Source: Sulfuritortus calidifontis
GTDB lineage: Bacteria; Pseudomonadota; Gammaproteobacteria; Burkholderiales; Thiobacillaceae
Assembly: GCF_003967275.1 (NCBI RefSeq)
Contig: NZ_AP018721.1
Coordinates: 1,550,001 to 1,614,000 of the forward strand
Direction of reading: 5' to 3'
DNA length: 64,000 nucleotides
Part shown: piece after piece, positions 2,985 to 24,671 of the stretch
Position numbering within the stretch: position 1 is the stretch's first letter
Layout of the letters: each line of letters begins with the position of its first letter
Position numbers and translations under genes: made by a program
Notes under the pieces: model-generated
The model's input: the letters and a program-made list of their open reading frames with translations, nothing else
The model's database searches: none
Told to the model about the DNA's origin: nothing

Positions 2985-3524
2985 ATGAATTTTTGCAGCC
3001 ATTGCGGCGCCCCCGTCAGCTTCGAAATCCCGCCGGGCGACAACCGCCCGCGCTATCTCTGCCGCCACTGCGACACCATCCATTACCAAAACCCGAAGAT
3101 GGTGGTCGGCTGCCTGCCGATCTGGGAAGACCAGGTGCTGCTCTGCCGCCGCGCGATCGAACCCAAGTACGGCCTGTGGACCCTGCCGGCCGGCTTCATG
3201 GAAAACGGCGAGGCGGTGGACGAGGGCGCGGCGCGGGAGACCCTGGAAGAGGCCGGCGCCCGGGTCGAGGTGCTCGACCTCTACACCCTGATCAGCCTGC
3301 CCGACATCAACCAGGTCTATCTGCTCTATCGGGCCCGGCTGCTCGATCTCGATTTCGCCCCCGGCGAGGAATCGCTCGAGGTCGGCCTGTTCAGCGAGGC
3401 CGACATCCCCTGGGGCGAGATCGCCTTCCGCACCGTGGAAGAGACCCTCAGGCACTACTTCCACGACCGCCGCCTGGGTCACTTCCCCCTCCACCGCGGC
3501 AACCTCTACCGCTCCCCGCGCTAG
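2985..3524 (+). CDS. Nudix hydrolase with N-terminal zinc ribbon
   Basis: A 179-residue protein. Cys4, Cys7, Cys26 and Cys29 form a zinc ribbon, and a Nudix box runs from G70 through E76 and R84-E85 to E88-E89, matching the metal-binding consensus. Nudix enzymes hydrolyse nucleoside diphosphates linked to another group. The zinc ribbon recalls NADH pyrophosphatase (NudC), but the protein is shorter than NudC, so the substrate is not certain. It is transcribed divergently from the tandem-receiver gene and stands alone. Confidence 0.87.
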   Translation: MNFCSHCGAPVSFEIPPGDNRPRYLCRHCDTIHYQNPKMVVGCLPIWEDQVLLCRRAIEPKYGLWTLPAGFMENGEAVDEGAARETLEEAGARVEVLDLYTLISLPDINQVYLLYRARLLDLDFAPGEESLEVGLFSEADIPWGEIAFRTVEETLRHYFHDRRLGHFPLHRGNLYRSPR

Positions 3525-3565
3525 ACCTTTCCCCCTGCTGGTAGGTCCGAACCAGGCCCTTGGGC

Positions 3566-3595
3566 TTGCTTTAGCCCCTTGTTTTTCCTTATATT
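3566..3595 (+). promoter_or_regulatory. Candidate sigma-70 promoter of the persulfide dioxygenase operon
   Basis: TTGCTT (3566-3571) and TATATT (3590-3595) are separated by 18 bases in an AT-rich patch just before the operon. The first ATG at 3631 is preceded by GAGGAG. This is pattern matching only. Confidence 0.45.
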
Positions 3596-3630
3596 ACAAA
3601 GCTCATTTGAATAATTGAGGAGAAAGGCCG

Positions 3631-18129: not shown

Positions 18130-20346
18130 TTATTTGGTCGTATAGGTGAACACTCCGTCCCAGTCGGCCGGCGGCGGCTCCCGGCGGAAGTGCTCGATCC
18201 GCTCCAAATATACCCCGTAAAGCGGCTCGGGTGTTTCGGTATTCAGGGCGCGCAAGGTGGACTCGGCGGCATCCCAACGCCGGGCCTGATAGTCGGCCAA
18301 GGCCGACTCGAACCGCTCGGCCAAGCGAAGGACGGCCGCGTCCAGTTCGGCCTTGAGGCCGAGCGCCTGGTAGATCGCCACTGGCTGCGCCTTGCCCTTC
18401 ACCCGCACCCGGTCGATGAGGCGGAAGGCGATGTCCGGGCAGGCCGCCCGGGTCGCCTCGCCGCAGAGCACGCCCACCCCGTACTGTTTGGTCAGCCCCT
18501 CCAGGCGCGAGGCCAGGTTCACCGCATCGGCCATCACTGTGTAGGCCATGCGGAATTCCGAGCCCATGTTGCCCACGCTCATGCGTCCGGTATTGACGCC
18601 GACGCCGATCTTGACCGGCGGCCAGCCGCGGGCCTCGAGCTGCGGGTTCAATGCCGCCAGTTCACGCTGCATGGCCAGGGCGGTGAGCACGCCGTCGCGG
18701 GCATGCCGCTCGTTGCTCAAGGGTGCGCCCCAGAAGGCCATGATCGCATCGCCGATATACTTGTCGATGGTGCCGCGATGCTCCTGCACCACCCGGGTCA
18801 TGGCCGAGAGGTAGACGTTGAGCATGTCGGCCAGTTCGGCCGCCTCCAGCCCTTCCGAGATGCTGGTGAAGTCGCGGATGTCGGAGAACAGCACGGTCAT
18901 CTCCCTCGACTGGCCGCGCAGGCTGTAGCGAGCGGGGTCCTTGGCCATCTCCTCGACCAGCTCGGGCGGCACATACTGGCCGAACAGACGGGTGATCAGG
19001 TGCTTGGCCCGGGCCTCGACGAAGAAGCCGTAGCTCATGTTGAGGATGAACAAACCGGCCAGGGCCAGCAGCAGGCTGGCCGGGGCCAGGCTGAGATGCT
19101 GGACCGACCAGGCATAGAAATCGAGGCCGATCGTCAGCGCAAGCAGGCCGGCAGCGACCGCCGCCGCCCACACCGGCGTGGCGAACGGCAGCCAAAGGGC
19201 CAACACCAGGCCGAATACCGCCACCGCGATGAGGTTCCAGCGCCGGGCCTGGGCCGGTTCCCATTTGATGCTGCCGTCGAGCAGGCCGGACACCACATTG
19301 GCGTGGATCTCCACCCCGGGGAAGGCCTTGGCGGTCGGCGTCACCCGCAGGTCCATGATGCCCGGCGCGGTGGCACCGATCAGCACCAGCCGGCCTTCCA
19401 GCTCGGCCGCCGGCGCCCTGCCGTGGATGACGTCGGTCGCCGGGATATAGCGGTAGGCGCGCTCCGTGCGATAGGGCACCAGCACCATGGCGTTCTCGTC
19501 CAGCGGCGCCTGGATGCCGTCGAGCGCGAGGCTGGCCGGGCTGGTCGACAACGCGCGTGCCTCGCCCGCCGCCAGCACCTGCGGCGCCCCCAGGCCCAGG
19601 CCGGCCCGGACCAGGCTCAAGGCCAAGGCGCCGTAGCATTGGCCTTGATATTCGATGAGCAAGGGTTGCCGGCGGATCACCCCGTCGAAATCGGGCTGGA
19701 CGTTGAAGAAACCAGCGTCACTCGCTTTGACTTGCAAGCCCGGCAGATTGGCGCCATGGCCGCTCGCCACCAGCGGCCGCACGCCCTGCGCCGCCAGCTG
19801 ATTGCAAGGCGACAAGGGTGGGGGTAAGGCACCCACCCGGCCGGCCGCCGGGCCGAAACCGAAGTAATAGCCCAACACCGTCGGACCTTTGCCCAGGGCG
19901 TTGGCGAGGCGCGCATCGTAATCGAGGCCGGGCGCCACCCGGTCGAGCAGGCGGGCAAACCCCGCTTCGCCGGCCAGGGGGCCGCGTGCCAGGTCCTTCA
20001 GCACCGGCAGGCCGGAACTCTGGTCCGGTTCTGCGAACACGATGTCGAAACCGACCGCCGCCACGCCGTATTGCTCGAACAGGTTCTCGGTCAGTTGCGC
20101 CGTCACCTTGCGCGGCCAGGGCCAGCGACCGATCTCGCGCAGCGACTTCTCGTCGATATCGACGATGACCACCCGATCGTCGACGCCCTGCTCGCGGAAC
20201 AGGCGCAGCTTCAGATCGTAGAGGGAGGCGTCGAGTTTCTCGACGAAGTAGAAGTTGTACAGGCCGCCGACGTGGCCAAGCAGGAGCAAGAGGAAGACCA
20301 GGCTGACCGCCAATTGCCCGAGGAATCGGCGGCTGCGCTGGGTCAT
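18130..20346 (-). CDS. CHASE2-domain adenylate/guanylate cyclase
   Basis: A 738-residue membrane receptor. An N-terminal membrane helix leads to a periplasmic CHASE2 sensor (about 35-330), then three membrane helices (about 345-430) and a class III cyclase domain from about residue 475. The catalytic domain keeps the metal-binding aspartates in LFSDIRDFTS and DKYIGDAIMAFWG, and the transition-state region DAVNLASRLE. Substrate (ATP or GTP) is not settled by eye, though most CHASE2 cyclases make cAMP. It overlaps the M48 protease gene by 4 bases. Confidence 0.9.
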   Translation of the reverse strand: MTQRSRRFLGQLAVSLVFLLLLLGHVGGLYNFYFVEKLDASLYDLKLRLFREQGVDDRVVIVDIDEKSLREIGRWPWPRKVTAQLTENLFEQYGVAAVGFDIVFAEPDQSSGLPVLKDLARGPLAGEAGFARLLDRVAPGLDYDARLANALGKGPTVLGYYFGFGPAAGRVGALPPPLSPCNQLAAQGVRPLVASGHGANLPGLQVKASDAGFFNVQPDFDGVIRRQPLLIEYQGQCYGALALSLVRAGLGLGAPQVLAAGEARALSTSPASLALDGIQAPLDENAMVLVPYRTERAYRYIPATDVIHGRAPAAELEGRLVLIGATAPGIMDLRVTPTAKAFPGVEIHANVVSGLLDGSIKWEPAQARRWNLIAVAVFGLVLALWLPFATPVWAAAVAAGLLALTIGLDFYAWSVQHLSLAPASLLLALAGLFILNMSYGFFVEARAKHLITRLFGQYVPPELVEEMAKDPARYSLRGQSREMTVLFSDIRDFTSISEGLEAAELADMLNVYLSAMTRVVQEHRGTIDKYIGDAIMAFWGAPLSNERHARDGVLTALAMQRELAALNPQLEARGWPPVKIGVGVNTGRMSVGNMGSEFRMAYTVMADAVNLASRLEGLTKQYGVGVLCGEATRAACPDIAFRLIDRVRVKGKAQPVAIYQALGLKAELDAAVLRLAERFESALADYQARRWDAAESTLRALNTETPEPLYGVYLERIEHFRREPPPADWDGVFTYTTK

Positions 20347-21224
20347 TTCAGGCGGTAGAAGCGCATGGCGACCAGATTGCCCTCGGGCAGCCCGGCCTCG
20401 GCCGCCTCCGCCGCCTCGCCCAGGCGGGCCAGGCGGTCCTCGGGATGCGGATGGGTCTTGTAGAGCAGGGCCATGCGGCTGTCCTGGGCCGGCACGTGGC
20501 CGATCTCCTGCAGCACCGCCGGCAGGGCGTAGGGGTCATAACCGGCGCGCGCGCTCAACACCATGCCGATGCGGTCGGCCTCGTATTCCGCATCCTTGTC
20601 GAGCGAGCGGGCGACGATCTCGGCGCCGTTGCCGATCAGGTTCTGCACGAGTTGGTTCTTGTTGCCCAGGCGCTGGCCGAGCAGGCCGCCCACCGCCGCG
20701 ACCATCTGCGACTGCTGCAGCAGCTTGAGGTGGTGCTGGCGGATGACGTGACCGATCTCGTGGCCGAGCACGCCGGCCAGTTCCGCCTCGTTCTGCAACC
20801 GCTTGTACAGCCCCTTGGTGACGAAGACATAGCCGCCCGGCGCGGCGAAGGCATTGATGTCTTCGCTCTCGATCACGCCGAAGCGCCAGGGCAGGTCCGG
20901 CCGCTCGCTGGTGCTCGCCACCCAGCGACCGACCCGGTTGACATAACGCTGCAGGGCCGCGTCATTCACCAGCGGCGCGGCACCCAGCAGGTTGCCGGCG
21001 ATCCGCTGGCCGATCAGCCGCTCCTGCTCGGGCGAGGTGTTGCCGCTGAGCAAGGCACCGATCAGATTGCCCACGGCGTCGCCATTGTCGTCCTGCGGCG
21101 TCTCCTGCTGCGGGCCAATCTGCATGCCGCCGTTGAGCACGCCGCGCAGCAGGCCGCCGAAATCGGCCGCCTGGACCGGGCTGACCAGCAACATGCCGGC
21201 AAGAAACATCACGCGCATCTTCAT
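20343..21224 (-). CDS. M48-family zinc metalloprotease
   Basis: A 293-residue secreted protease with a signal peptide (cleavage near residue 19). The zinc site is HEIGH at 155-159 with the third ligand in EYEADRIGM, and the C-terminal KTHPHPEDR is typical of M48 peptidases of the BepA/LoiP type, which act on misassembled outer-membrane proteins. It overlaps both neighbours by 4 bases, so it is translationally coupled to the SH3 protein and to the cyclase. Confidence 0.9.
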   Translation of the reverse strand: MKMRVMFLAGMLLVSPVQAADFGGLLRGVLNGGMQIGPQQETPQDDNGDAVGNLIGALLSGNTSPEQERLIGQRIAGNLLGAAPLVNDAALQRYVNRVGRWVASTSERPDLPWRFGVIESEDINAFAAPGGYVFVTKGLYKRLQNEAELAGVLGHEIGHVIRQHHLKLLQQSQMVAAVGGLLGQRLGNKNQLVQNLIGNGAEIVARSLDKDAEYEADRIGMVLSARAGYDPYALPAVLQEIGHVPAQDSRMALLYKTHPHPEDRLARLGEAAEAAEAGLPEGNLVAMRFYRLK

Positions 21225-21763
21225 GGCTGGCTGCCTCCCCAGCTCTCGCCGCCGCCCGATGCAGCCTGCGGCAGCGGCAGGTAGGCGACCTCGCGCCGGG
21301 TCAAGCCGGCATCGGCGGCGAAGCGGCTCGCCTCGACCAGGCTCACGGCATAGCCTTCCAGCCGGTCCAACTGGCGGGCATCGTAATGCGCCTGCTTCAG
21401 TTCTTCTTCACTGAGGCCGCGCACGCCGGCCACCGCCACCACCTTGCCCGGATCGCGCCGGGTCGCGCCCAGCGCCAGCACGCCTTTGAGCTCGCCGCCG
21501 ACATCGGTCTGCGCCACCGCGCCGCCGCGCACGGAGAGCAGGCGCACCCAGCCGGTCTTGCCCTGGGCCTGAATCCGACTCCAGCCGCCCTGGCGACCGA
21601 GCACCTCGACCGCCTGACCCTTGGCCACGCTCACCACTGCCGGCGCCGTCGTCGCCGGGGCGCTGCGCAGGGTGTCGTCGCGCAGCATCACGCCGGGGGC
21701 CGCCCAGACCGGCATGGCCATCAGCCAAAGCCATGCCGCCAAGCCTATGTGCAAACGCTTCAT
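21221..21763 (-). CDS. Exported SH3-domain protein
   Basis: A 180-residue protein with a signal peptide (WLMAMPVWA) and a bacterial SH3 domain at about 25-85 (LRSAPATTAPAVVSVAKGQAVEVL, GKTGWVR). The rest is unassigned. The ATG at 21763 follows AAGGAGG by 8 bases, better than an ATG 30 bases upstream. It is the first gene of the operon with the M48 protease. Bacterial SH3 domains often bind the cell wall, so an envelope role is likely. Confidence 0.8.
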   Translation of the reverse strand: MKRLHIGLAAWLWLMAMPVWAAPGVMLRDDTLRSAPATTAPAVVSVAKGQAVEVLGRQGGWSRIQAQGKTGWVRLLSVRGGAVAQTDVGGELKGVLALGATRRDPGKVVAVAGVRGLSEEELKQAHYDARQLDRLEGYAVSLVEASRFAADAGLTRREVAYLPLPQAASGGGESWGGSQP

Positions 21764-21815
21764 GTCAATCGCCTCCTTGGTATTCATGGGCAATGATACC
21801 CATCGCCCCCGGTCG

Positions 21816-22628
21816 ATGCATTATGATCGTCTCATGCGCTGGCTCATCGAACTGCTCACCCGCAGCGGCGACGCCCTGATCGCCCGCCTCGTTCCCCTGG
21901 GACGCATCCTGCGCTTCGGCACCGTTGCGCTGGCCGGCGTCTTCTCGCCCGACCTTTACAACAGCGCGACCCGCGCGGTGGTGCAGAAGCAGATCTACTT
22001 CACCGCCTGGCAGATTCTGGGCAGCTTCAGCCTGTTCGCCGCCCTGCTCAGCCTGATTCTGATCCAGATCGCCATCACCGCCGCCCGCAATTACGGCCTG
22101 GGCGACTATGCGCTCGAAGTGGTGCTGCGCATCCTGGTCATCGAACTGCTGCCGCTGATCACCGCGCTGTTCGTCGCCCTGCGCTCGGGCGCCGCGATCA
22201 ACGCCGAGGTGGCCCTGATGAAGATCACCAATGAAATCGAGGCCCTGGCCGAGGTCGGCGTCGACGCCATGCGCCTGGAACTCCTGCCCCGGATGATCGG
22301 CGGCGTGGTCTCGGTGCTGGCGCTGACCGCAGTGGTCAGCCTGATCGCCCTGGTGCTCGCCTACCTCAGCCTGTATGGCCTGCAGGCCCACGGCCTGGCC
22401 GCCTTCAGCCATATCCTGGGTCAGGTCTTCTCGCCGCTGCAACTGCTCGGCCTCTGGCTCAAGTGCCTGATGTTCGGCCTGGCGGTGACCATCATCCCCA
22501 TCGCCGCCGGGCTGGATGCCCCGCACAAGCTGTTCTTCGCGCCGATCGCCGTGCTCGCTGGCATGGTCAGGCTGTTCTTCGCGCTGATGCTGATCGAGGT
22601 GGGATCATTAGCCATCACCTATCTATAG
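21816..22628 (+). CDS. MlaE-family ABC permease
   Basis: A 270-residue inner-membrane permease with about five hydrophobic segments. The conserved core is LITALFVALRSGAAINAEVALMKITNEIEALAEVGVD split across residues near 120-155, typical of MlaE/YrbE proteins in phospholipid transport across the envelope. An alternative ATG lies at 21834, and neither start has a clear Shine-Dalgarno. It opens an operon with an ATPase-like remnant, an MCE protein and a lipoprotein. Its 3-prime end overlaps the next frame. Confidence 0.88.
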   Translation: MHYDRLMRWLIELLTRSGDALIARLVPLGRILRFGTVALAGVFSPDLYNSATRAVVQKQIYFTAWQILGSFSLFAALLSLILIQIAITAARNYGLGDYALEVVLRILVIELLPLITALFVALRSGAAINAEVALMKITNEIEALAEVGVDAMRLELLPRMIGGVVSVLALTAVVSLIALVLAYLSLYGLQAHGLAAFSHILGQVFSPLQLLGLWLKCLMFGLAVTIIPIAAGLDAPHKLFFAPIAVLAGMVRLFFALMLIEVGSLAITYL

Positions 22629-23065
22629 CCTGGGTCGCGAGCGACACCGAACGGCGCGCCTGGCTCGACGATCACCCCGATGCCGTGCAGGTCTCGGCCG
22701 AACTGCCTCTGCGCGCCAATCTCTCGGTGCTGGAGAACATCGCCCTGGTGCCGCAATATCGGGACAACGCGCCGACCCGCCAGGCCCAAGAGCAGGCGTG
22801 GGGCCTGCTCGATCGCCTGGGCCAGACGGGCTGCGCGGATTTACGCGACCCCGACCTCGACAGCGAGCAGCGCTTCGTCGCCAAACTGCTGCGCGCCGTG
22901 ATCGGCCGGCCCTCTATAATCGTGATCGAGCGACCCGGCCTGCTGTTGCCGGACCAGCCCTATCCGGACTTCCTGGCCGAGTGCCTGGCTAAACTGAAAG
23001 ACGAGATCAACACGCTCTGGATCGTGGACTATCGATGGAACGCCCCACTCTACCCACCCACCTGA
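22607..23065 (+). CDS. Degenerate ABC ATPase-like protein in an MCE operon
   Basis: An open frame of about 152 codons, aligned by eye with the second half of an ABC ATPase. LRANLSVLENIALVPQYR matches the region after the Q loop. DLDSEQRFVAKLLRAVIGRP stands where LSGGQ plus the following helix should be, and IIVIERPGLLL replaces Walker B LLLLDEP, so the catalytic glutamate is Arg. No Walker A is present. There is no ATG, GTG or TTG at the expected start. The listed start is an ATT after GAGGTGGG; the GTG at 22685 is the first usual codon. It overlaps both neighbours. Confidence 0.6.
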   Translation: MSHHLSIAWVASDTERRAWLDDHPDAVQVSAELPLRANLSVLENIALVPQYRDNAPTRQAQEQAWGLLDRLGQTGCADLRDPDLDSEQRFVAKLLRAVIGRPSIIVIERPGLLLPDQPYPDFLAECLAKLKDEINTLWIVDYRWNAPLYPPT

Positions 23066-23970
23066 TCAAGCACCTCGGTCTCAAGGTCAGCCTGCTGGTC
23101 GGTACCACCGCCTTCCTCGCCGTCGGCTTCTTCATCTATACCCTGTTCGCCCGCGGCCTGTTCGAATCGACCCGTACCCTCACCCTGATCGCCGAAGACG
23201 TCAGCAACGTCAGCGTCGGCATGCCGCTCAACTTCTCCGGCTTTCCCATCGGCCAGGTCAAGCGCATCACCCTGACCGCAAACGGCCAAGGCCGGATCGA
23301 GATCGAAGTGCCGACCAAGAATGAGCGCTGGCTGCGCACGACCAGCGTGTTCACCCTGCAAAAATCCCTGGTCGGCAGCGCCCGGATCCGCGTCTTCAGC
23401 ACCGACCTCAAGGCCCCGCCGCTGCCGGCCGACGCCCTGCCGCCGCTCTACACCGGCGACATGACCGAGGAGTTGCCGCTCCTGATCACCCGGGCCAAGA
23501 ACCTGCTCGACAACCTGGAGCGCATGACCCACGAGGGCTCCCACCTCGACCAGAGCCTGGGCCACGTGAACACCATGACCGGCCGCATGGCCGGCGAATA
23601 CGGCATGCTCGAAGGCGTACTCGGCAGCGCCGACAAGGCGAAACAGGTGGTCGATGCCGTCGGCCAGGCCAACCGCCTGCTCGGCACGCTCAACGGCCTT
23701 TCGCTCAAAATGGACCAGCGGCTGTTCGGCCAGGATGGCACGCTGGACAAGACCGACCAAATATTGAGCAACCTCAATGCGGTGCTGGTGCAGACCCGCG
23801 ACAGCCTGAAGAAGGCCGACGCCATCCTGGCCAACGCCGAGGCGGCCAGCACCGACCTCGCCCTGCTCCGGGCGGAGATCGACGACAGCGTGCGCAAGGT
23901 CAATCACCTGATCAACGAGATCAATCGCAAATGGCCATTCGCCCGCGAAGCGGAGGTGAAGCTGCCATGA
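23035..23970 (+). CDS. MCE-family (MlaD-like) lipid-transport protein
   Basis: A 311-residue protein with an N-terminal membrane anchor (about 18-40) and one MCE domain (about 45-125, DVSNVSVGMPLNFSGFPIG). A long helical, coiled-coil-prone tail follows, where proteins of this family form channels or bind lipids. The periplasmic orientation fits substrate binding for the MlaE permease. It overlaps the degenerate ATPase frame by 31 bases and the lipoprotein gene by 4. Confidence 0.9.
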   Translation: MERPTLPTHLIKHLGLKVSLLVGTTAFLAVGFFIYTLFARGLFESTRTLTLIAEDVSNVSVGMPLNFSGFPIGQVKRITLTANGQGRIEIEVPTKNERWLRTTSVFTLQKSLVGSARIRVFSTDLKAPPLPADALPPLYTGDMTEELPLLITRAKNLLDNLERMTHEGSHLDQSLGHVNTMTGRMAGEYGMLEGVLGSADKAKQVVDAVGQANRLLGTLNGLSLKMDQRLFGQDGTLDKTDQILSNLNAVLVQTRDSLKKADAILANAEAASTDLALLRAEIDDSVRKVNHLINEINRKWPFAREAEVKLP

Positions 23971-24671
23971 CCTCCGCCCGCCGCCTCATCTGGCTCACCC
24001 TGCCCCTGCTCGCCGCCTGCGCCGGCTCGCCATCACCACCCGACTGGCGAATGAATGCGGCCGACCTGCTGGAACGCTATCAGCAGCGCTGGCTGGAAGG
24101 CGACAGCCGCACTGCCGAAATCAACTTCGCCAAGGCCCGCAGCGAACTGGCCCGCACCGGTCGGCTCGACCTCGCCGCCCGCGCCGAATTGATCGGCTGC
24201 GCCACCCGCCTAGCCAGCCTCGACCTTGCACCCTGCACCGCCTATGACGCCCTTTCCGCCGATGCCACGGCCGACGAAGCTGCCTATGCCCGCTTCCTGG
24301 CCGGCGACTGGCAAGGCCTGGATGCCGGCCGGATACCGGCGCACTACACCGATCTGGTCCGAGCCAGCGATGCCGCCGGGCGTAACCGCGCCGCCCAGGC
24401 CATCGCCGACCCGGCCGCCCGGCTGATCGCCAGCGCCCTGCTGCTCAAGGCCGGCGAGATCGCGCCCGAAACCATCGGCCTGGCCGGCCGGACGGCCTCC
24501 GAGCAGGGCTGGCGCCGTCCCCTGCTGGCCTGGCTGCAGGTTTCAGCGCAGCGGGCCGAGGCCGCGGGCGACAGTGCCGCCCTGGCCAAGCTCAAGCGTC
24601 AGATGGAACTGGTCACCGGCAGCCGGTCCACCTTGTCCCAGCCGGGTTCAACTCCGCCTAACTCCCCATAA
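23967..24671 (+). CDS. Lipoprotein of the MCE transport operon
   Basis: A 234-residue protein. The ATG at 23967 overlaps the MCE stop (ATGA) and has GGAGGTG upstream. It gives a short lipoprotein signal with lipobox LAAC. The mature part is Ala/Leu-rich and helical, with no family that I recognise. By position it may be the outer-membrane component or periplasmic partner of the lipid transporter. Confidence 0.75.
   Translation: MTSARRLIWLTLPLLAACAGSPSPPDWRMNAADLLERYQQRWLEGDSRTAEINFAKARSELARTGRLDLAARAELIGCATRLASLDLAPCTAYDALSADATADEAAYARFLAGDWQGLDAGRIPAHYTDLVRASDAAGRNRAAQAIADPAARLIASALLLKAGEIAPETIGLAGRTASEQGWRRPLLAWLQVSAQRAEAAGDSAALAKLKRQMELVTGSRSTLSQPGSTPPNSP

Follow-up and report, generated by a model that had tools for sequence, protein, structure and literature searches.

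An operon of Sulfuritortus calidifontis that encodes an MlaE permease and an MCE protein carries, at the place of the ATPase, a conserved gene for half an ATPase whose product supplies neither half of an ATP site. We read this half-ATPase as a dedicated and catalytically dead pseudo-NBD that serves MlaE as a docking scaffold, within an MCE system where ATP hydrolysis has been lost. We give this reading a probability of roughly 0.6, docking and the energy source being inferred.

Results

The window—the whole stretch of 64,000 nucleotides that was analyzed—corresponds to positions 1,550,001–1,614,000 of the single 2.72-Mb contig of S. calidifontis, and coordinates below are window positions unless another locus is named. 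The operon consists of four genes with head-to-tail overlaps (mlaE, half-ATPase, MCE gene, and lipoprotein gene), with these features:

21834–22628, plus strand: divergent mlaE-type permease (Pfam MlaE, E 7.5e-36, 124 bits, cut-off 22.5)
22596–22599, plus strand: GAGG, Shine-Dalgarno-like, 7 bases upstream of ATT (from sequence)
22607–22609, plus strand: ATT, proposed AUU start codon inside mlaE (kept in 30/30 overlapping loci versus 2/36 others)
22607–23065, plus strand: half-ATPase (pseudo-NBD, putative), open frame of 152 codons plus stop
23035–23970, plus strand: MCE (MlaD-like) protein (Pfam MlaD, 30.9 bits, cut-off 25.1)
23967–24671, plus strand: lipoprotein of a helical-repeat family without Pfam model (lipobox LAAC)

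The mlaE and half-ATPase frames share 22 bases, the start of the MCE gene overlaps the half-ATPase gene by 31 bases, and an ATGA overlap joins the MCE and lipoprotein genes. The requirement of an MlaE permease together with an MCE protein is satisfied at the locus, both exceeding their Pfam cut-offs, and the permease is far below the NCBIfam cut-offs for MlaE (60.8 versus 212.2, and 62 versus 315). An earlier note, made from the sequence alone, had claimed an intact 152-codon frame at the MlaF position, and this held: 22607–23065 is open and lies between the MlaE and MCE genes. No working ATPase was found at the locus among the window frames examined, the half-ATPase alone being present, and the closest other ABC_tran match in the genome is ~15 kb from the operon, beside what we take to be a LolC/FtsX-like permease. 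Upstream of mlaE, two genes on the minus strand (20343–21793), which we take to be peptidase-like (HEIGH motif) and SH3-like secreted, have similar counterparts adjoining several of the moved mlaE genes described below.

The lipoprotein is predicted to be a helical repeat, and its structure model is all-helical. A fold search with it gave no match at E≤0.001, and Pfam searches on 23 lipoproteins gave a single match at E 0.01, a weak one to TraN, with no PqiC-type lipoprotein among them. The family accompanies the divergent MlaE in all 21 of the ATPase-less loci inspected (see below) and in many half-ATPase loci. In one genome in which mlaE has moved off the half-ATPase, the frame directly after the lipoprotein gene (L035, 6052–6837, minus strand) is one that we take to be a group II intron reverse transcriptase.

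The half-ATPase has lost the catalytic motifs of an ABC ATPase. The absence of Walker A and of LSGGQ and the presence of Arg for the catalytic Glu, all claimed in the earlier note, held in the sequence, in our alignment A1 (26 rows from 25 distinct loci, with row lengths of about 150–175 residues), and in the profile alignment. Walker A (GxxxxGK[ST]), as read by eye, is absent from the half-ATPase and from all 26 rows of A1. At the signature position, the window protein has DLDSEQRF instead of LSGGQ, and LSGGQ occurs in none of the A1 rows, where the aligned positions read LSxEERF or similar. The Walker B line of the window protein is IIVIERP, which puts Arg at the position of the catalytic Glu, and this Glu is replaced in every A1 row—by Arg in 24/26 and by Gln in 2/26 (L022 and L023)—in the register given by the profile-to-structure alignment. 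A composite ATP site is formed by the Walker A of one subunit and the signature of the other. Comparison thus shows, in the absence of biochemistry, that the half-ATPase supplies neither half of the site.

The fold is nonetheless that of an ABC ATPase, although this is hard to see in single sequences. Pfam ABC_tran (PF00005) does not match the window half-ATPase and matches only 1/26 family members, at E 0.0057; the single-sequence likeness to ABC ATPases is weak (NCBIfam LolD, E 1.7e-4). The family profile, by contrast, matches a solved ABC ATPase, PDB 4u00, at E 2.4e-9, in an alignment where DLSxEERF falls on the LSGGQ segment and IDRP/IERP on the DEP after Walker B. AlphaFold2 run on A1 predicts a confident ABC-ATPase core (pLDDT 93.8, pTM 0.89), and a Foldseek search with this model returned ABC ATPases on top (4u02, E 2.4e-8), with MlaF (6xgz, E 7.5e-7) among the best 50 matches. 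Alignment to MlaF 6xbd_I by VIA-align, whose output gives only the first and last aligned residues, placed model residues 4–152 on MlaF residues 35–213 (Z 13.2, 146 residues aligned, rmsd 2.6). The resemblance to the back half of an ABC ATPase claimed in the earlier note therefore held with a refinement, the model aligning from residue 4 to MlaF residue 35 onward: the domain begins approximately where the Walker A strand of MlaF begins, and we infer from the alignment end points that the strand and helix flanking the P-loop are retained while the P-loop itself is missing. Relative to MlaF, what is missing is the preceding part, the P-loop, the signature, the catalytic Glu, and the C-terminal tail. 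As a member of the ABC ATPases, the protein fails on Walker A, LSGGQ, catalytic Glu, and Pfam score, and passes on core fold. Because the hhalign match of the family profile to the genome's own MlaF is weak (E 4.2e-4, probability 34), the data do not establish MlaF specifically as its ancestor. Invariant A1 residues include P34, L35, R36, N38, L39, N44, R89, F90, R96, P110, D116, Y119, D141, W144, L148, and Y149; residues 34–44, just past the Q-loop position, hold 6/19 of the invariant columns. In ABC transporters, the segment that follows the Q-loop touches the permease.

The gene is old, conserved, and under purifying selection, as comparison shows. A single-sequence search at E below 1e-20 found the half-ATPase in 23/25 genomes of the family, that of S. 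calidifontis included, a result beyond chance; the two exceptions, G011 and G021, come from a single genus whose genomes are small. A second collection yielded eight relatives of 50–85% identity, several of them the same assemblies, plus one generic ATPase. Searching with the A1 profile detected same-length orthologues in 32/399 genomes of the order, spread over six families, and hits in 2/369 genomes of the class, namely the window's own and G649. In G649, which is outside the order and not in A1, the half-ATPase again lies between MlaE and MCE, and its PLRxN motif reads PLLAS; two congeners of G649 have no half-ATPase. Estimates of dN/dS by NG86, from which overlaps with neighboring genes were excluded, were 0.20–0.49 in 15 within-genus pairs and 0.14–0.33 in seven listed close pairs (one of them also among the 15); for mlaE in the same six genomes, they were 0.05–0.28. 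The proposal that the frame reflects selection rather than decay therefore held, with dN/dS of 0.14–0.49 across orthologues. What would have refuted the earlier note, a full-length ATPase in relatives at this locus, does not apply to them, as they carry the same short form; the sole full-length ATPase found at a comparable place (G624, below) comes from another order, where its neighbor is a distant MlaE, and it too is degenerate.

Translation of the half-ATPase likely starts at an AUU codon inside mlaE, an inference from comparison for which there are no initiation data. The first codon of the frame is ATT, which spans the Ser-Leu codons of mlaE and is kept in 30/30 overlapping loci from at least four families, with GAGG just 5' of it in all 30; GAGG also encodes Glu-Val of MlaE, and part of its conservation may be due to protein constraint. 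No canonical start codon is found within 40 codons upstream of ATT in any of these 30 loci, and in four (L004, L073, L074, and L151) the frame closes 3 codons 5' of ATT. A canonical codon occurs ≤12 codons after ATT in 13/30, so a later start is possible in those 13 but not in the other 17. In the window, reading on from ATT, only one ATG/GTG/TTG (the GTG at 22685) occurs before the conserved PLRANL motif.

Codon choice in mlaE is consistent with such a start. The Ser codon is TCA in 28/28 Ser-bearing loci and the Leu codon is TTA or TTG in 30/30, compared with TTA plus TTG from 1/29 to 7/22 at six other well-conserved mlaE Leu columns (Leu in 22 or more of 30 loci, in a set that includes L013 and omits L151) and with a background of 7% for TCA and 12% for TTA plus TTG, estimated roughly from long frames at these loci. 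ATT is kept even in L007 (GCA TTA) and L151 (CTA TTA), despite a different residue. Conversely, it is present in only 2/36 uncoupled loci, a set made up of 19 that lack the half-ATPase, 5 in which the two genes have moved apart, and 12 in which the half-ATPase has a separate start. A Fisher test on this contrast gives 9e-17, a measure of contrast rather than a probability given that the loci are related, and the two exceptions (L013 and G188) may be recent changes. After the split in G310, the moved mlaE reads TCG CTG and the half-ATPase gene retains ATT with AGGAG ahead. As to the two exceptions themselves, L013 (genome G008) has ~86 inserted bases between mlaE and the half-ATPase, with new ATG and GTG starts, and the old TCA TTG stays in mlaE; L103 (genome G188) has a moved mlaE with TCA TTA retained, and a frame ~1 kb away (3109–3621, minus strand), which we take to be a resolvase, may mark a recent split.

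Three other explanations were considered for the start region. Initiation at the GTG at 22463, which would give 200 aa and run out of frame through mlaE, is unlikely given the lack of a canonical codon within 40 upstream in 30/30 loci and the four closed frames. The GTG at 22685 was rejected because starting there would lose the first strand and helix, and GTG is at this place only in L001–L006 and few others. It is also unlikely that TCA TTA is kept for the MlaE protein, since uncoupled Ser loci use TCG in 11 cases and TCA, TCT, and TCC in two each.

AUU starts have been reported for infC and cvfC1 (about 10% of AUG), pcnB is listed with an AUU start in a reference title in the same sources, and sigR has a GTC start repressed by IF3 (PMC5472188, PMC13009471). 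From these precedents, a low, mlaE-coupled output of the half-ATPase is a reasonable inference. The window gene would share with these four a conserved noncanonical start (AUU; GTC in sigR) with a Shine-Dalgarno sequence (PMC5472188, PMC13009471), but here the AUU is inside the upstream gene and constrains its codons, for which there is no experimental proof. Since Pfam ABC_tran is practically blind to the family and a canonical start is probably absent in many genomes, annotation may miss or shorten the gene.

The half-ATPase is inherited together with one divergent kind of MlaE, even after the two genes have separated, as comparison shows. MlaE and MCE are each encoded by three genes in the genome, and the window MlaE scores 124.5 bits to Pfam MlaE versus 251.7 and 221.7 for the two others. 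The canonical Mla locus encodes an MlaF of 266 aa with GNSGCGKT, LSGGM, DEP, and THD, and the second MCE system (at 144,022–145,867) includes an ABC_tran match of full length, which a search with the genome's own MlaF recovers at E 2e-55. The search for a stand-alone MlaF proposed in the earlier note thus returned MlaF-type ATPases that are each beside their own MlaE and MCE, and the window system alone, among the MCE systems of the genome, is without a full ATPase. Three MlaE and three MCE matches were present in 9/9 half-ATPase genomes tested (in G023, one of the MlaE matches is only a fragment) and in 0/2 genomes without the half-ATPase, which have two of each. In 5/9 (G018, G188, G310, G016, and G023), the mlaE and half-ATPase genes are no longer adjacent, yet both are kept. 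A hidden ATPase beside the five moved mlaE genes was ruled out, no frame of ≥110 codons with Walker A being found within ~1.5 kb of them. Across the order, the divergent MlaE kind is present in 32/32 half-ATPase genomes.

Another 25/399 genomes of the order have this MlaE kind without a half-ATPase. We inspected 21/25 of these ATPase-less loci, reading also ~4 kb upstream in 17 and ~1 kb or less in four (L139, L143, L144, and L148). All 21 carry an MCE gene and the lipoprotein, and no MlaF-like frame (≥100 codons, own-MlaF match at E≤0.01) was found near any of them, while control loci were detected. Searching the class added three more ATPase-less loci, in G072, G115, and G690, the last outside the order; in G690, a long CRISPR-like array whose repeated unit translates as FNPHPARRPGAV (L174, 4906–8217) adjoins the MlaE-MCE-lipoprotein locus. 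In a tree of 57 MlaE proteins, half-ATPase and ATPase-less MlaE form one group (100/100), within which 19 ATPase-less rows form one branch (86/95) that adjoins L036 and L055 (91/98). The branch sits within the half-ATPase bearers, which form one branch of their own in 0% of 200 bootstrap trees, and a FastTree run agrees. This nesting implies that the ATPase-less systems descend from ones with a half-ATPase, through a loss that most simply happened once. Neither the AUU start nor the ATPase-less sister operons featured in the earlier note.

In MlaFEDB, contact with MlaF is carried by the MlaE helix between TM2 and TM3 (PMC7790496). Identity of this coupling segment relative to the rest of MlaE is 1.11 in the half-ATPase group (23 rows), 1.15 in canonical plus second-system MlaE (21 rows), and 0.81 in the ATPase-less group (19 rows), the pattern expected if the half-ATPase docks there. 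However, when the 196 windows are ranked by the drop in conservation from the half-ATPase to the ATPase-less group, the coupling window comes only 40th, the MlaE C terminus dropping more, and within the half-ATPase group 61 of the 196 surpass it in conservation.

A possible earlier stage, seen in one genome only, is provided by G624 from another order, where genes for a distant MlaE (92 bits), a full-length NBD, and an MCE protein are arranged in that sequence. As read by eye, this NBD keeps Walker A (GEHGAGKS), but DNP replaces DEP, the signature position reads MSESF, and the His loop has SKD. By hhalign, it is closer to the half-ATPase profile (E 3.7e-7) than is the MlaF of S. calidifontis (E 4.2e-4). 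No G624-like locus was found at E≤1e-30 in the other three genomes of its order. These orders were sampled thinly (4 genomes for that of G624 and 3 for that of G649), without further intermediates.

Discussion

In the mechanism that we propose, which is inferred beyond the lack of an ATP site, MlaE, the pseudo-NBD, the MCE protein, and the lipoprotein would be the products of a four-gene MCE lipid-transport operon. Two pseudo-NBD copies would occupy the place of MlaF on the MlaE dimer, docked to its coupling helices, and would hold or gate the permease, and the MCE ring with the lipoprotein as outer partner may ferry lipid across the periplasm. No ATP would be hydrolyzed at this site, so that lipid would move down its gradient or be driven from outside the operon. 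The AUU start inside mlaE would keep pseudo-NBD output low and coupled to MlaE, and in the sister lineage the pseudo-NBD would have been lost too. No data bear on the lipid, the direction of transport, or the energy source, all of which are inferred. Evidence against the scaffold reading includes the lack of biochemistry, the rank of the coupling window, the PLLAS of G649 and the congeners of that genome without the gene, and the possibility that MlaF-type ATPases act in trans. Of the proposals made in the earlier note, a regulatory subunit remains unproven, a docking scaffold fitting better, and a system running without ATP is favored but not proved.

A bolder reading, which we would as readily doubt as accept, is that stepwise loss of the motor is visible in living genomes, from a full-length degenerate NBD (G624) through a truncated scaffold to no NBD at all (24 loci). 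MlaE would then be an ATP-free lipid conduit, with a scaffold made at low, coupled levels from AUU. MlaE, the MCE protein, and the helical lipoprotein are kept in the last two of these stages.

The most serious alternative is that ATP comes in trans, the MlaF-type ATPase of another system powering the window MlaE and the half-ATPase being a regulator or adaptor. This remains possible and is not excluded: the genome has two other MCE systems with ATPases, MceG of mycobacteria is thought to serve several Mce systems and is thus a precedent for sharing (PMC9947336), and the coupling segment is as conserved in window-type MlaE as in canonical MlaE. Against it, one would expect competition from the half-ATPase for the same site, and the less conserved coupling segment of sister systems without half-ATPase suggests that there is no ATPase at all there. 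The half-ATPase might instead be an assembly or stability factor that aids MlaE or the MCE ring without a role in transport. The possible low expression from an AUU start and the full loss of the gene in the sister lineage while MlaE, MCE, and lipoprotein persist would suit this idea, which we consider unlikely, but the same facts suit a scaffold and nothing here separates the two.

Production of MlaE and the half-ATPase as one protein by −1 frameshifting, the kept ATT being part of the shift site, has in its favor that the 22-base overlap is in the right sense and conserved in sequence. We regard it as very unlikely, since no slippery heptamer is evident in the overlap by eye, several genomes have the half-ATPase as a separate gene with a start of its own, and the ATT of G310 stays with the half-ATPase although mlaE has moved. 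Half an ATPase with its catalytic residues gone might suggest a pseudogene left over from a full MlaF, or else an error of assembly, but this is all but excluded by same-length orthologues in many genomes, dN/dS well below 1, and a confident fold.

The window system was compared with systems already described. With MlaFEDB from E. coli, Acinetobacter, and Pseudomonas, it shares the MlaE permease, the MCE protein, and a subunit with the core fold of MlaF, but it has no ATP site in the NBD-like subunit and no working ATPase gene at the locus, its gene order is E-NBD-D, and it has a helical-repeat lipoprotein in addition. PqiABC and LetAB are ATPase-free MCE systems (PMC12436622), but with PqiA/LetA as the membrane partner where the operon described here has MlaE, and no PqiC-type lipoprotein was found here. 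Mpc of Brucella, which has a lipoprotein, and MlaEFD of Veillonella are reduced MlaE-MCE systems (PMC12436622, PMC10665443), and MlaEFD systems without MlaB (STAS) and MlaC are known (PMC10665443), but unlike the window system both Mpc and MlaEFD are described with an MlaF-type ATPase. Loss of catalytic NBD residues is shared with ABC exporters having one degenerate nucleotide-binding site (PMC7756269). Such exporters keep the whole domain and one working site, whereas the only NBD-like subunit of the window operon is truncated and has no working site.

Within the open-licence PMC literature searched, we came across no report of an MlaE system whose NBD is dead or missing. Since a Veillonella survey reported MlaDE clusters beside MlaDEF, with uncertain MlaF annotation (PMC10665443), loci without MlaF have been counted before. 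To our knowledge, how ATPase-free MCE systems are powered is an open question. Here, evolution has apparently uncoupled an MlaE-type ABC permease from ATP: some lineages retain a dead subunit and a sister lineage has none, which makes the scaffold role of an NBD testable apart from its motor role. A transporter gene with a conserved AUU start would extend a very short list, with a built-in comparative test. If our reading is true, this transporter may work without burning ATP at this site.
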